Assembly (NCBI GenBank): GCA_025054715.1
Contig: JANWYH010000003.1
Location: 60,781-124,780 of the forward strand
Length of the DNA stretch: 64,000 nucleotides
Source of the DNA: Pyrinomonadaceae bacterium
GTDB taxonomy: Bacteria > Acidobacteriota > Blastocatellia > Pyrinomonadales > Pyrinomonadaceae
Reading direction: 5' to 3'
The position numbers and the translations under genes are program-made. Shown here one piece after another: positions 38,395-43,866 of the stretch. Position 1 is the first letter of the stretch, and each line of letters starts with the position of its first letter. The notes beneath the pieces are model-generated. The model was not told where the DNA came from, made no database searches, and saw nothing but the letters and a program-made list of their open reading frames with translations.

Positions 38395-41300
38395 TTAGTA
38401 GCTTGCCGAAATCGGCATTGGCACTGGTAAATCTCCGTTAGAACCAAACTGAGTAACCTGTAGCTGATTATTAGAACTTCTTAAAATATACCAATTACCG
38501 TCAGATTGACGAAAAACAGCTATGTCTGTCTTGCTATCTCCATCGAAATTACCCGGTGATGGTAAATCAGTAAGCATAGAATTGCCCCACTGAGTAGCTG
38601 AAAATTGACCATCAGAACTTCTCAAAATATACCAAACTCCATTTGACGGCCTCCAAACGGCTACATCCGCTTTTCCATCACCGTCAAAATCAGAACTCAC
38701 CGGTCTATCACCGTTTGAGCCAAATTGAATTGCTGAAAACTGACCATCAGAACTTCTCAAAATATACCAAACCCCATTTGACGGTCTCCAAACGGCTATA
38801 TCTGCTCTTCCATCACCGTCAAAGTCAGAGTTTACTGGCCTATCACCATTCAAACCAAACTGAATAGTTAAAAGCTGGTTGTCAGAGCTTCTCAAAATGT
38901 ACCAAAACCCATTTGACGGTCTCCAAACAGCTATATCCGCTTTTCCATCACCGTCAAAATCTCCCGGCGCTGGAATATCACTTGCCAATCCAAAAACATA
39001 AGAAGTATAGCCAGTCTGTGATCTCTGCAAATACCAAATTCCATTGCGGTAAACGGCAAAATCTGCTCTTCCATCTCCATCATAGTCAGCAGTAACTATA
39101 CGATCGCCACTCGTGCCAAATTGAAAAGCATTAAATTGGGATGTTTGACTTGCAACAAAATACCAAGTCCCATTTGACGAACGCCAAACAGAAATATCTG
39201 TTTTACCGTCACCATCAAAATCCGCTACGTTAAAGCTTTGTGAGGAGGTATTTGCATTAAAGATAACTAGTGCAAAGTGCTGATCGGTCGGATCGGCGTT
39301 TCCCAAAATACCATTTCCGTTTAATCCTGCTACTGAAACCTCAACTGTAAAAGGCGTTCCAGCTGCAATCCCGGCAGGTAGAAAAACATTTTCTACATTA
39401 TCCCGATTGTTATATGCCCCGCCTGTGACTGACACACCGTTTGAAAAAACATTTCCTTTGTATGTTTGTCCGCCCACGGTCACGGTGAGATCTAGGTTAT
39501 TTACTAAGGCTGGGTCAGCCGTTCCTGGTGGATCAGTCCACACTAAGGTCACTCTAAAGTGCTTCGTTGAGCTTGCAACTCTTCCTGTAATTACATAATT
39601 TTGTCCAACATCTGTAAACTCAACTGTTTGGTTTAAGTAATATACTGGGACACCGGTATTTAGAACATTTTTCATGTTAATTCTTCCCCATCCTTCTGCT
39701 CCGTTCGGAATGGGCGCAGTCGTTCCGACTCCGTTCATGTCAACCGTCCCATTGATTAAAGCTGCTTTTATGAGGGCTGGAGAAGGATTTATCCCTGAAT
39801 TGTTGTTTTTCCAAAACTCTGTAAAAAGCGCCGCGGCGCCAGCAACTTGCGGTGCTGCATGAGAAGTCCCGCTGCTCCAGGCGTGAATTCCGTCTCCTAT
39901 AATTCCACTAACAGAGTTCCCGCTTCCAGCAAGGCTACCAGTTATTACGGTCCCTGGTGCTGTTATGTCTGGTTTTATGCGACTATCTGCCGCGGGACCA
40001 CGACTTGAAGAACTATTTAAGTCGTCTATGTTGTTTGCGGAACTTGAGATTTCCGTCCTAAGATTTTCTGAATTTGCTACGGCAATCGAATTTTTCGACA
40101 TTTTGGGTCTAGTTAGCCCAGACGTTCCACTATTTCCGGCAGAAAAAACCCAAAGAATTGGATCTATCGTGCCAGCAAAGGACGCATCTTGAGCCATGCT
40201 ATCATAAAGAGCAGCAAGCGAATCGTAAGCATTTCCGTTAGTGCCTGAACCCCAGCTATTGTTTGAAATTGTTCCACGAACACCGTTCACTCCAGTAGTC
40301 GTTACGGTGTCGTTAGCGGTTTGTTGATAGCTTCCACCATAACCACTTCTCAAAAATGGAATGTTTATGATATTGGCATTAGGAGCCACTCCCAGTCCAT
40401 AGTTGTACCCTAGCGGATCGAGAATAGAGGGAAAAGGGGTTGTTCCTGCAATAATGCTTGCATTTATATGTCCATGCCCGCCAGAAGCTCCGGCCGGAGC
40501 ACCGCCAAGAGCATTAACCGTGTTGTTGGCCGTAATATAAAATCCTCCATTACCTGGTATTGAAACACCATCATCTACTACGGATACAGTTACTGCTTGA
40601 CCGCTTACACCAAATTGACTCTGTGGATTATAACCAGGCGGTAAAATCTGTGTTTGTGAAATATAATTTCCTGCCACTATCTGTGCTGCTCGCTCATCTT
40701 CAGCCTTAGGAGGCAAGTAAGCTTCGATTGAAAAGACATCTTTCAAAGAAGCTATCTTTTCAACTTCGGAAAGCGGAACATTCACTCTTACATAATTGAA
40801 AAAATTATTTGGCATTTCATAAGCCTCTTCTACTCTTGCAGAAACACCCAACTCTATCTCGCTGAGAACACGCTGAAAGTCAGCCCTTGAAAAGATCGCA
40901 ACTTCTAACCTAACCCTTCCTTGATCCACTTCTATAGGCGTTATATCGTCTGGAACTGCTTTTTCCCCTCTGATATGTGCCAGCTGAGCTTGAAGAACTC
41001 TAGAAATCCTATCCTGAGGAAGATAGCGCCCAACCCATCGAACCCTATAATAATTGAAAACCTTGGAAATTTGCTCTGAATTTGCATAGACAAAAAAGGC
41101 ATTATTAGGGACATATTGTATAAACTCTAAGCCTATTTCCCTTAAGTCCTCAAACCATCTATCTCTAGCAGGGGCTATGAACTGAACAATGTAATAATCT
41201 TTTTCCGAAGAATTAAAATCAACCAAAGCATGTGCACTATCTGCAAAAGGCTCAAATTTTGAACCCGGCAAATTAATCTCCGTTTCTAAAAATTCTTTAG

Positions 41301-41586
41301 GTAAATCTTTGAGTCTTTCACTAGACCCGACTACTATAAGAAATTCTCCATAATCCTCCACAACTATTGCTGACCTTTCAATGCGCATCTTTTCTTCAGG
41401 CGACTTTACGAAAACGCGCCAAAGTTTGTTTGAAGGATTTAAGGCTGCCTTTTTAGCCTCATCAGATTTGAACCTTGCCTGCTTCAACGTTTTCTCCTGT
41501 CTAACCGCTGCAAAGAAAGAAACAGAGTTCACTAGTAAAAGATTTACCACTAAAAACAGGGATAAGAAAGCCTTGCTGATCTTCAT
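38395..41586 (-). CDS. Secreted S8 serine peptidase with C-terminal FG-GAP-like repeats
   Basis: 1063 residues with a signal peptide (MKISKAFLSLFLVVNLLLV). A long prodomain (to about 310) precedes the subtilase domain, with Asp in VSVVDDGVSI, His in GGHGHINASIIAG and Ser in SGTSHAAPQVAGA, so the triad is complete. A beta-sandwich domain (about 660-780) follows, then six repeats of about 49 residues, each starting with a calcium-type loop such as DFDGDGKADIAVWRPSNG and ending WYILRSSD. The repeats probably form a beta-propeller-like adhesive or substrate-binding tail. A shifted frame at the extreme 3' end would read NADFGKLLK, which resembles repeat consensus. Confidence 0.93.
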   Translation of the reverse strand: MKISKAFLSLFLVVNLLLVNSVSFFAAVRQEKTLKQARFKSDEAKKAALNPSNKLWRVFVKSPEEKMRIERSAIVVEDYGEFLIVVGSSERLKDLPKEFLETEINLPGSKFEPFADSAHALVDFNSSEKDYYIVQFIAPARDRWFEDLREIGLEFIQYVPNNAFFVYANSEQISKVFNYYRVRWVGRYLPQDRISRVLQAQLAHIRGEKAVPDDITPIEVDQGRVRLEVAIFSRADFQRVLSEIELGVSARVEEAYEMPNNFFNYVRVNVPLSEVEKIASLKDVFSIEAYLPPKAEDERAAQIVAGNYISQTQILPPGYNPQSQFGVSGQAVTVSVVDDGVSIPGNGGFYITANNTVNALGGAPAGASGGHGHINASIIAGTTPFPSILDPLGYNYGLGVAPNANIINIPFLRSGYGGSYQQTANDTVTTTGVNGVRGTISNNSWGSGTNGNAYDSLAALYDSMAQDASFAGTIDPILWVFSAGNSGTSGLTRPKMSKNSIAVANSENLRTEISSSANNIDDLNSSSSRGPAADSRIKPDITAPGTVITGSLAGSGNSVSGIIGDGIHAWSSGTSHAAPQVAGAAALFTEFWKNNNSGINPSPALIKAALINGTVDMNGVGTTAPIPNGAEGWGRINMKNVLNTGVPVYYLNQTVEFTDVGQNYVITGRVASSTKHFRVTLVWTDPPGTADPALVNNLDLTVTVGGQTYKGNVFSNGVSVTGGAYNNRDNVENVFLPAGIAAGTPFTVEVSVAGLNGNGILGNADPTDQHFALVIFNANTSSQSFNVADFDGDGKTDISVWRSSNGTWYFVASQTSQFNAFQFGTSGDRIVTADYDGDGRADFAVYRNGIWYLQRSQTGYTSYVFGLASDIPAPGDFDGDGKADIAVWRPSNGFWYILRSSDNQLLTIQFGLNGDRPVNSDFDGDGRADIAVWRPSNGVWYILRSSDGQFSAIQFGSNGDRPVSSDFDGDGKADVAVWRPSNGVWYILRSSDGQFSATQWGNSMLTDLPSPGNFDGDSKTDIAVFRQSDGNWYILRSSNNQLQVTQFGSNGDLPVPMPISASY
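38433..39230 (-). repeat. Six tandem coding repeats (about 147 bp) in the subtilase tail
   Basis: Six copies of the DxDGDGxxD unit, spaced about 147 bp. The units beginning near 38700 and 38850 are close to identical at DNA level, sharing blocks such as CCATTTGACGG and CTTCTCAAAATATACCAAA. This indicates recent duplication or gene conversion. Confidence 0.8.
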
Positions 41587-41695: not shown

Positions 41696-42880
41696 ATGCC
41701 CGTTACTCAAAGAAATTTGGGATTCAAGGCATTAAGAGTAGGGATCTTCGTAGCTTTAACACTAATTTCTTTGGCTTTCCTAATCATAAACGCCTCTGGA
41801 GATTTCAATCCTTTTGAAAAAAAGCTCCGACTGCGCGCTAGATTCGCTAATGCCGATGGGTTACGACCTGGCGCTGAAGTCCAGCTTGCTGGGATAGTTA
41901 TCGGAAGAGTCGAAGACGTGCGCTTCCTTCCTCCAGATGATACCCAAACTGCAAAAGTAGAAGCTGTTTTGAGCGTATCAGCAGAAATCGACGATAGACC
42001 AATCACTGAAAGAATAAGAACTGATTCAACAGCTCAACTAATTGCAACTAGTGTCCTTGCAAACGATAAAATCATAAACATAACCCCAGGAACGGCTAAA
42101 GGTGATCCAGTTTCAGAAAATCACATACTTGAATCAAGCACTGCAATCTCAATAAATCAGCTCACTCAAACAGGCAATGATCTTCTAAATCAAATTAACA
42201 AGTTATCAATACCTGTAAACGAAATCCTAAACAAAGCTAATCGAGGTGAAGGAACTCTCGGTAAAATCATCAATGACGAATCCCTTTACGAAAATCTAGA
42301 TAACACTATAAACGAAACAAGGCTTACGATGATAAAGCTCCAAAAAACTCTGGACCAAATCAATAGTGGGAAAGGAACTGCAGGCAAACTTTTAACAGAT
42401 CCGAGTCTTTATGATAGCCTCAACAAGACCGTCGCTCAACTAGAAGCCATATCAACAAACCTACAACAAGGACGCGGAACGGCAGGAAAGCTTCTAAATG
42501 ATGAAAAACTTTACAACAATGCAAATGACGCTATCAATGAGATTCGCCTTCTAGCAGGCAAATTAGATAAAACTTTGCAGGAGCTCAATCAGCTTCTTAG
42601 CGATATCAATCAAGGAAAAGGAACTTTTGGCAAACTCCTAAAGGATGAAGCGTTGTATCAAGACTTACGTAGCTCTATTTCAAAGATAGACCTTCTGTTA
42701 GCAGATATGAGAAGCGGTAAAGGAACCGTAGGTAAGCTTCTTACGGATGAAACTTTATACAACAACCTTAGCCAAACCGCAGCTAATGTAAATCAATTTT
42801 CTAGCGAAGGAACAAAATTATTGAACGATTTTCGGCAAAATCCAAAAAAATTCCTGACTATAAGACTGAAGCTCTTCTAA
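41696..42880 (+). CDS. MCE-family (MlaD-like) lipid-transport protein with C-terminal repeats
   Basis: 394 residues. One N-terminal span (about 10-31, LRVGIFVALTLISLAFLII) is followed by a single MCE domain (LRARFANADGLRPGAEVQLAGIVIGRVEDVRF, residues about 42-73). The C-terminal half has five units of the pattern G[KRE]GTxGKLLxDxxLY at about residues 183, 224, 259, 307 and 341, each with helical spacers. MCE proteins form hexameric rings moving phospholipids between membranes. No MlaE permease is in the window; the next gene is a degenerate ABC ATPase. Confidence 0.9.
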   Translation: MPVTQRNLGFKALRVGIFVALTLISLAFLIINASGDFNPFEKKLRLRARFANADGLRPGAEVQLAGIVIGRVEDVRFLPPDDTQTAKVEAVLSVSAEIDDRPITERIRTDSTAQLIATSVLANDKIINITPGTAKGDPVSENHILESSTAISINQLTQTGNDLLNQINKLSIPVNEILNKANRGEGTLGKIINDESLYENLDNTINETRLTMIKLQKTLDQINSGKGTAGKLLTDPSLYDSLNKTVAQLEAISTNLQQGRGTAGKLLNDEKLYNNANDAINEIRLLAGKLDKTLQELNQLLSDINQGKGTFGKLLKDEALYQDLRSSISKIDLLLADMRSGKGTVGKLLTDETLYNNLSQTAANVNQFSSEGTKLLNDFRQNPKKFLTIRLKLF

Positions 42881-42906: not shown

Positions 42907-43866
42907 ATGTGCCTTAAACTTGAGAAAGTGTCAAAGCGCTATCTCAGCGGGTGGGTTTTAAGAGATCTGAGCTTTAAGGTAGAACGTGGCGAAGTCTTTG
43001 GCTTAATTGGAGAAGCAGGTAGTGGTAGAAGCACTACTTTGAAAATAATAGCTGGCAAAGTTAAAGACTTCTCAGGAAAAATTTTCTTTGAGAATTCGTC
43101 AGTAAAGGATATCGAAATCCTTACTTCTGAGTCAAAATCAAAAAATACCTTCTTACGAAAACTTCTCGGCATTAGAAGAAATGATTTTGTTCCAGTTGGA
43201 AAAAGAAAATTGGCGGAGCTAGAACAAATCCTAGAAAAGGCAAAAGACGTAGTTTTATTAGATAATCCCTTTATGTGTCTTGATGAATCGGAAAGGCAAA
43301 AGGCAATTGAACTTCTAAGAACTACCGTCAAAAGAAAAAGTCTTGCTTCTATTTTCGTAACAAATAATCATGAGGAGATTTTTGGAGCTTGTGATCGAAT
43401 CGGTATTTTGCATCGGGGTGAGATAATACAGGAAGGAACCCCCCGAGAAGTCTATGAAAAACCCGAATATGCTATTTCAGCCTCCCTCTTAGGAAAATGT
43501 AACCTGATAACAGCGAGAAGAGTAACTTTTTCAAAAGAAACTCCAGAATTTCAAACACTTGAAGGAAATCATAGGCTTAAAACCGATAGAGTCGAGCGTC
43601 AGCGTTTAGGTGCTATAACACGAAACACGACACTTGCTGTAAGACCTGAACATATTTGCATCAGCTTCGGCGCTTCGTTTCCCGAGGATAATCTCTTAAA
43701 AGCAAAAGTCATAAAGATAGACTTTCGAGGAGAAATAACAAGAGTTTTACTTGATGCAAACGGACTCAAGTTAGAAGCTGCGGTTTTGAGATTAGTCGGA
43801 CTGGATGTAGGTGATGAATGCATAATAGCTATTCCGCCTAATAGAATAACTATTTTAAGAGATTAA
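42907..43866 (+). CDS. Degenerate ABC-type ATPase with TOBE-like C-terminus
   Basis: 319 residues. The ABC start is normal (KLEKVSKRYLSGWVLRDLSF), but Walker A reads GEAGSGRST, with Arg41 in place of the essential Lys. The segment to Walker B is only about 75 residues, and no LSGGQ signature or Q-loop is visible. Walker B ends VVLLDNP, with Asn120 where the catalytic Glu should be. The switch His (NNHEE, 155) is retained. The region from about 200 on (RPEHICISF and following) resembles a TOBE domain of sugar/polyamine importers. It probably cannot hydrolyse ATP normally. It starts 27 bases after the MCE gene, which suggests a link. Confidence 0.8.
   Translation: MCLKLEKVSKRYLSGWVLRDLSFKVERGEVFGLIGEAGSGRSTTLKIIAGKVKDFSGKIFFENSSVKDIEILTSESKSKNTFLRKLLGIRRNDFVPVGKRKLAELEQILEKAKDVVLLDNPFMCLDESERQKAIELLRTTVKRKSLASIFVTNNHEEIFGACDRIGILHRGEIIQEGTPREVYEKPEYAISASLLGKCNLITARRVTFSKETPEFQTLEGNHRLKTDRVERQRLGAITRNTTLAVRPEHICISFGASFPEDNLLKAKVIKIDFRGEITRVLLDANGLKLEAAVLRLVGLDVGDECIIAIPPNRITILRD

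Follow-up and report, generated by a model that had tools for sequence, protein, structure and literature searches.

The window, the whole 64,000-nucleotide stretch of DNA that we analysed, carries a gene for a degenerate ABC ATPase directly behind a gene for an MCE protein. The following features of the locus enter the argument below.

41696–42880, forward strand: MlaD/MCE protein, directly upstream of the pseudo-ABC-ATPase gene; the sole MlaD-family match in the window's genome.
42907–43866, forward strand: pseudo-ABC-ATPase gene, encoding a RecA-like core without Q-loop, helical subdomain or LSGGQ, and a fused TOBE (double OB) domain.
43009–43035, forward strand: degenerate Walker A, GEAGSGRST, with Lys replaced by Arg.
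43249–43272, forward strand: Walker B region, VVLLDNPF, with the Asp kept and the catalytic Glu replaced by Asn.
43633–43854, forward strand: TOBE_2 part of the conserved C-terminal region (residues 243–316), including the GASFPEDNLL motif.

The opposite strand carries a gene for a 1063-aa subtilase with FG-GAP repeats (38395–41586). The pseudo-ATPase gene is a single open frame of 319 aa with an ATG start, and its product matches Pfam ABC_tran at residues 18–131 (E 5.6e-13) and TOBE_2 at residues 243–316 (E 4e-5, over its cut-off), which confirms the sequence-only reading that the frame is intact and that a TOBE-like domain remains. That reading had also singled out GEAGSGRST, VVLLDNP and a missing LSGGQ helical domain, and alignment with 10 intact orthologues showed all three to be right. 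The Walker A fails the importer-ATPase pattern GxxGxGK[ST], Asn stands at both the catalytic Glu and the switch His positions, the signature region reads VPVGKRKL, there is no Q-loop, and most of the helical subdomain has gone.

By overall type, the window protein is a MalK/FbpC-type ABC ATPase with a TOBE domain. It shares fold, TOBE domain and descent with the PhnT2/FbpC/PotA-type importer ATPases (MalK group; NCBIfam TIGR03265 and kin). Its best NCBIfam match, in two separate pieces, is PhnT2 with 127 bits (cut-off 457.7); an intact orthologue from the same bacterial family scores 361 bits. An AlphaFold2 model built with 41 relatives (pLDDT 87.7, pTM 0.84) was weak at residues 77–91, the site of the missing helical subdomain. 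In structure comparisons of this model (Foldseek, VIA-align), MalK gave the best PDB matches, along the entire length of the protein (305 residues aligned at rmsd 3.2, Z 28.5), and GlcV and FbpBC followed closely; the protein is accordingly predicted to have a MalK-type overall fold with a C-terminal TOBE (double OB) domain. A published account of Neisseria FbpC describes a regulatory domain with two OB-folds per monomer that is part of the dimer, and states that substrates can regulate some ABC transporters through binding to the NBD dimer (PMC2896483). The window protein differs from the importer ATPases in having no Q-loop, helical subdomain, LSGGQ, catalytic Glu or switch His, and no permease or binding protein accompanies the degenerate form.

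The short build is not peculiar to this locus. Among 40 relatives there were eight more short-build proteins from the window's bacterial family (L002–L009) and five full-length FbpC-type ATPases with a related C terminus (L010–L014). A scan of genome contigs yielded 45 loci, from genomes named Acidobacteria, Pyrinomonadaceae, Blastocatellia or alike and in one case just 'bacterium', every one of the short degenerate build, including one partial gene (L103); a recent fusion or an assembly artefact is ruled out by this recurrence. For a comparison of motifs we then aligned the window protein with 44 full degenerate and 10 intact proteins; counts out of 45 include the window. The Q-loop and the helical subdomain were missing in 45/45 and LSGGQ was present in none, the nearest being LSGGE (L078), with a scrambled trace such as LADGEGQ retained by many; the catalytic Glu survived in 4/45 and the switch His in 1/45. 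The Walker B Asp and D-loop Asp were kept in all 45, and the Walker A Lys (GK) in 44, the sole exception being the window protein. The Ser/Thr after that Lys was lost in three proteins (L096, L097 and L102), and the ABC core as a whole was degraded differently from lineage to lineage. This pattern implies that nearly all members of the family should be hydrolysis-dead, and that most are probably still nucleotide-shaped. The idea that orthologues would carry the same substitutions thus held for the degenerate form, which recurs at all 45 loci, but not for the Lys-to-Arg change, which occurs in the window only. From the alignment, loss of the P-loop Lys appears private to the window species, whose protein seems to have gone one step further than its relatives.

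The retained GK and Asp residues would suit an adaptor that binds nucleotide and acts in a different cytosolic process, its P-loop being a switch and its TOBE domain a platform for binding, not for ligand sensing. Against this stand the Arg of the window protein itself, the three losses of Ser/Thr, and the finding below that constraint is strongest on the TOBE domain and not on the core; we regard an adaptor as possible but doubtful.

We searched 162 genomes of the class with a C-terminal profile. It matched in 74, once per genome, which rules out that the degenerate gene is a duplicate of a still-working copy. Fifty-three of these genomes carried the degenerate form (30 and 22 read in two batches, plus G076; one of the 30, L060, is a contig-end fragment) and 21 the intact kind. 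LSGGQ was seen in the 19 of the 21 that were inspected for it, which are all but G132 and G137. One genome (G016; L011, C44) has an intact-type ATPase gene with an in-frame TAG near its start, reflecting either decay or a sequencing error, and holds permease and binding protein. The fused permease was found in 21 genomes of family f1, to which the window belongs, exactly the 21 of the intact kind, and the binding protein in the same 21 plus G139. Neither cognate permease nor binding protein gave a match at E 1e-30 in G000 or in any of the 53 degenerate genomes. Both proteins score best against 2-aminoethylphosphonate models but far under those models' cut-offs, so the substrate of the old importer is not fixed. 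Relatives with intact motifs had been proposed as a sign that the gene is decaying here; such relatives occur only where the genome also holds the permease and binding protein, and the proposal fails.

In a tree of the TOBE region, one branch (100/99) parts 18 intact rows from all others. The outgroup sits on a long branch with one of its three rows inside, so the position of the root is uncertain, and no branch has exactly the degenerate rows on one side. A single origin of the degenerate form is likely from the shared deletion and is not proven by the tree.

Loss of the transport partners and lineage-specific erosion of the core, together with absence of the gene from its ancestral place in at least one relative, are what one would expect of a decaying remnant of a lost importer, its function gone and the gene kept by chance. 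We addressed this with measures of selection. None of the 44 full-length copies in the named genomes contains an internal stop, and their open frames span 288–326 aa. In the 11 close pairs with dS under 1, dN/dS was 0.07–0.18 for the core and 0.03–0.19 for the TOBE region, indicating purifying selection on both halves. Mean pairwise identity among degenerate proteins was 37% in the core and 60% in the TOBE region, the latter being higher in 986/990 pairs; among intact proteins the values were 80% and 54%, with the TOBE region higher in 0/45 pairs. Constraint is thus inverted: the ABC core is the conserved half when the protein is intact and the TOBE half when it is degenerate, and the TOBE half of the degenerate proteins is more alike than that of intact transporters. 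Between the window and its congener, synonymous sites were saturated (fraction differing 0.85 in the core, 0.72 in the TOBE region), so that no dN/dS is possible for this pair; at non-synonymous sites the fractions were 0.31 and 0.22, so that the frame has been held since their split. A decaying gene or pseudogene is ruled out for the family by dN/dS and open frames, and the chance-kept remnant is very unlikely because selection has been maintained. The recurrence of these losses throughout the family, with purifying selection acting, is consistent with two further suggestions of the sequence-only reading, a loss of ATP hydrolysis and a structural or regulatory role.

The place of the gene gives an indication of its history. 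Most degenerate copies lie beside a conserved small gene that we call c15.

L067 9610–9921, reverse strand: c15, a conserved small gene of about 90–104 aa; the copy tested has no Pfam match.

c15 is present in 92/162 genomes of the class. It is divergent from the degenerate gene and adjoins it in 40/46 loci, the gene start being about 80–200 bases away, and it stands next to the intact operon in 6/10 stretches read, with binding protein and permease in the same stretch in those 6. Since c15 flanks both arrangements, the ATPase appears to have stayed in place while the rest of its transporter was lost, and removal of binding protein and permease is the simplest history. c15 is also retained where neither importer nor pseudo-ATPase was found (G083 and G092). 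In G092 (L210 2640–2780) there is no pseudo-ATPase gene between c15 and an OmpA-like gene, the upstream element described below being still present, which means that the gene can be dispensed with. Window and congener have no c15; in both, the pseudo-ATPase gene follows the MCE gene. This genus has therefore moved the gene from its ancestral place, and the window copy, having left that place and lost its P-loop Lys, may be further along in loss.

A rival reading is that the protein still serves a transporter, as a non-catalytic, structural nucleotide-binding partner of another permease, such as that of the MCE/Mla system or of a neighbouring MsbA-like exporter. In its favour, the gap to the MCE gene in the window is 26 bases, the congener's gene also lies directly behind its MCE gene, an MsbA-like gene lies nearby in many loci, and there are precedents for degenerate sites in NBD pairs. 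However, all 45 proteins lack the Q-loop and helical subdomain, through which such a protein docks on a permease, and the MsbA-like protein has an ATPase domain of its own. Moreover, the permease and intact ATPase of the MCE system, which the sequence-only reading had proposed to look for elsewhere, are indeed found as a single MlaE and an intact MlaF together on another contig (C11) of the window's genome. In the other degenerate genomes compared (G009, G014, G017 and G018), the MCE orthologue was on a different contig in 4/4. We conclude that identity as the MCE/Mla ATPase is ruled out; the window gene resembles mlaF in adjoining an MCE gene in this genus, an adjacency that appears, as far as genomes were compared, specific to the genus. 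The MCE protein is probably a neighbour and not a functional partner, and a structural role with any other permease is highly improbable. The puzzle of a TOBE domain beside an MCE gene is resolved by descent from an importer ATPase.

The reading that fits best, and to which we give about an even chance, is that the window protein is a domesticated pseudo-ATPase, probably regulatory and binding nucleotide or ligand, whose role rests on the TOBE domain of the importer. The ancestor would have been a phosphonate/iron-type ABC importer made up of binding protein, MalK/FbpC-type ATPase and fused permease. Within Pyrinomonadaceae, one lineage would have lost both transport partners but not the ATPase, which would have shed its Q-loop, signature and helical subdomain as well as the catalytic Glu and switch His, while retaining the P-loop/Walker B fold and, above all, the C-terminal TOBE domain; in the window species the P-loop Lys would have gone too. 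Such a protein would be expected to form no ATP sandwich and to have no grip on a permease, and transport is very unlikely because both the partners and the permease-docking parts are lost. It would most likely be soluble, probably a dimer through its TOBE domains, and could bind nucleotide and/or a small ligand and control another protein, much as MalK controls MalT. The architecture, distribution, loss of partners, selection and shift of constraint on which this reading draws are observed; we infer the regulatory role, with its dimerisation, ligand binding, output and partner.

Known systems offer partial parallels. MalK is an importer ATPase that also regulates MalT, a job apart from transport, but it is still a working transport ATPase, whereas transport is lost in the pseudo-ATPase. 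The degenerate NBDs of heterodimeric exporters (TAP, TM287/288 and CFTR site 1) are likewise ABC domains that have lost catalytic residues and are kept by selection; theirs retain the helical subdomain inside a transporter, whereas the pseudo-ATPase is an orphan without it. In the open-licence literature, searched by titles and abstract openings, we found no description of this family or of an orphan ABC ATPase that has been retained while lacking its helical subdomain. It is usual to assess ABC ATPases by their motor motifs, and here about 50 species keep one with the motor removed and with its regulatory domain under tighter constraint than in functional transporters. Within one family of environmental bacteria, working and dead versions take each other's place, often at one and the same ancestral locus, so that both the separate functions of TOBE domains and the path from enzyme to pseudoenzyme become directly testable.

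A bolder extension, which we think unlikely, is that the family is a new class of signalling protein made from a transporter motor, in which the TOBE double-OB would serve as a stand-alone sensor and the nucleotide-binding, non-hydrolysing ABC core as a dimer platform. Its target would be either the divergent promoter that its gene has in common with c15 or a different cytosolic partner. Reading about 95 bases upstream of the gene in L061–L105, we found a divergent promoter-like element in 43 loci, ACTTGC-N8-GATGACAA-MAGCATACT-N3-6-TTTGCACG-N13-AAAGTTYC, with TTTGCACG exact in 39/43; there was none in five intact-operon intergenic regions examined and none in the window. A search of the 162 genomes with GCATACT-N3-6-TTTGCACG revealed no regulon, the element being single-copy per genome: it occurred once in 38/53 degenerate genomes, of which 37 have it no more than about 1 kb from the C-terminal match of the gene and one (G143) on a separate contig. 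Outside the degenerate set, 4/109 genomes had it (G030, G048, G114 and G134). The pattern TTTGCACG-N12-15-AAAGTTYC was present in 32/162 genomes. In G092, GATGACAA, TTTGCACG and AAAGTTCC are retained and the -35/-10-like parts are altered, which suggests that the downstream part of the element serves c15; going by the ECF consensus, we take this part, as a guess only, to be perhaps an ECF-type promoter directed towards c15.
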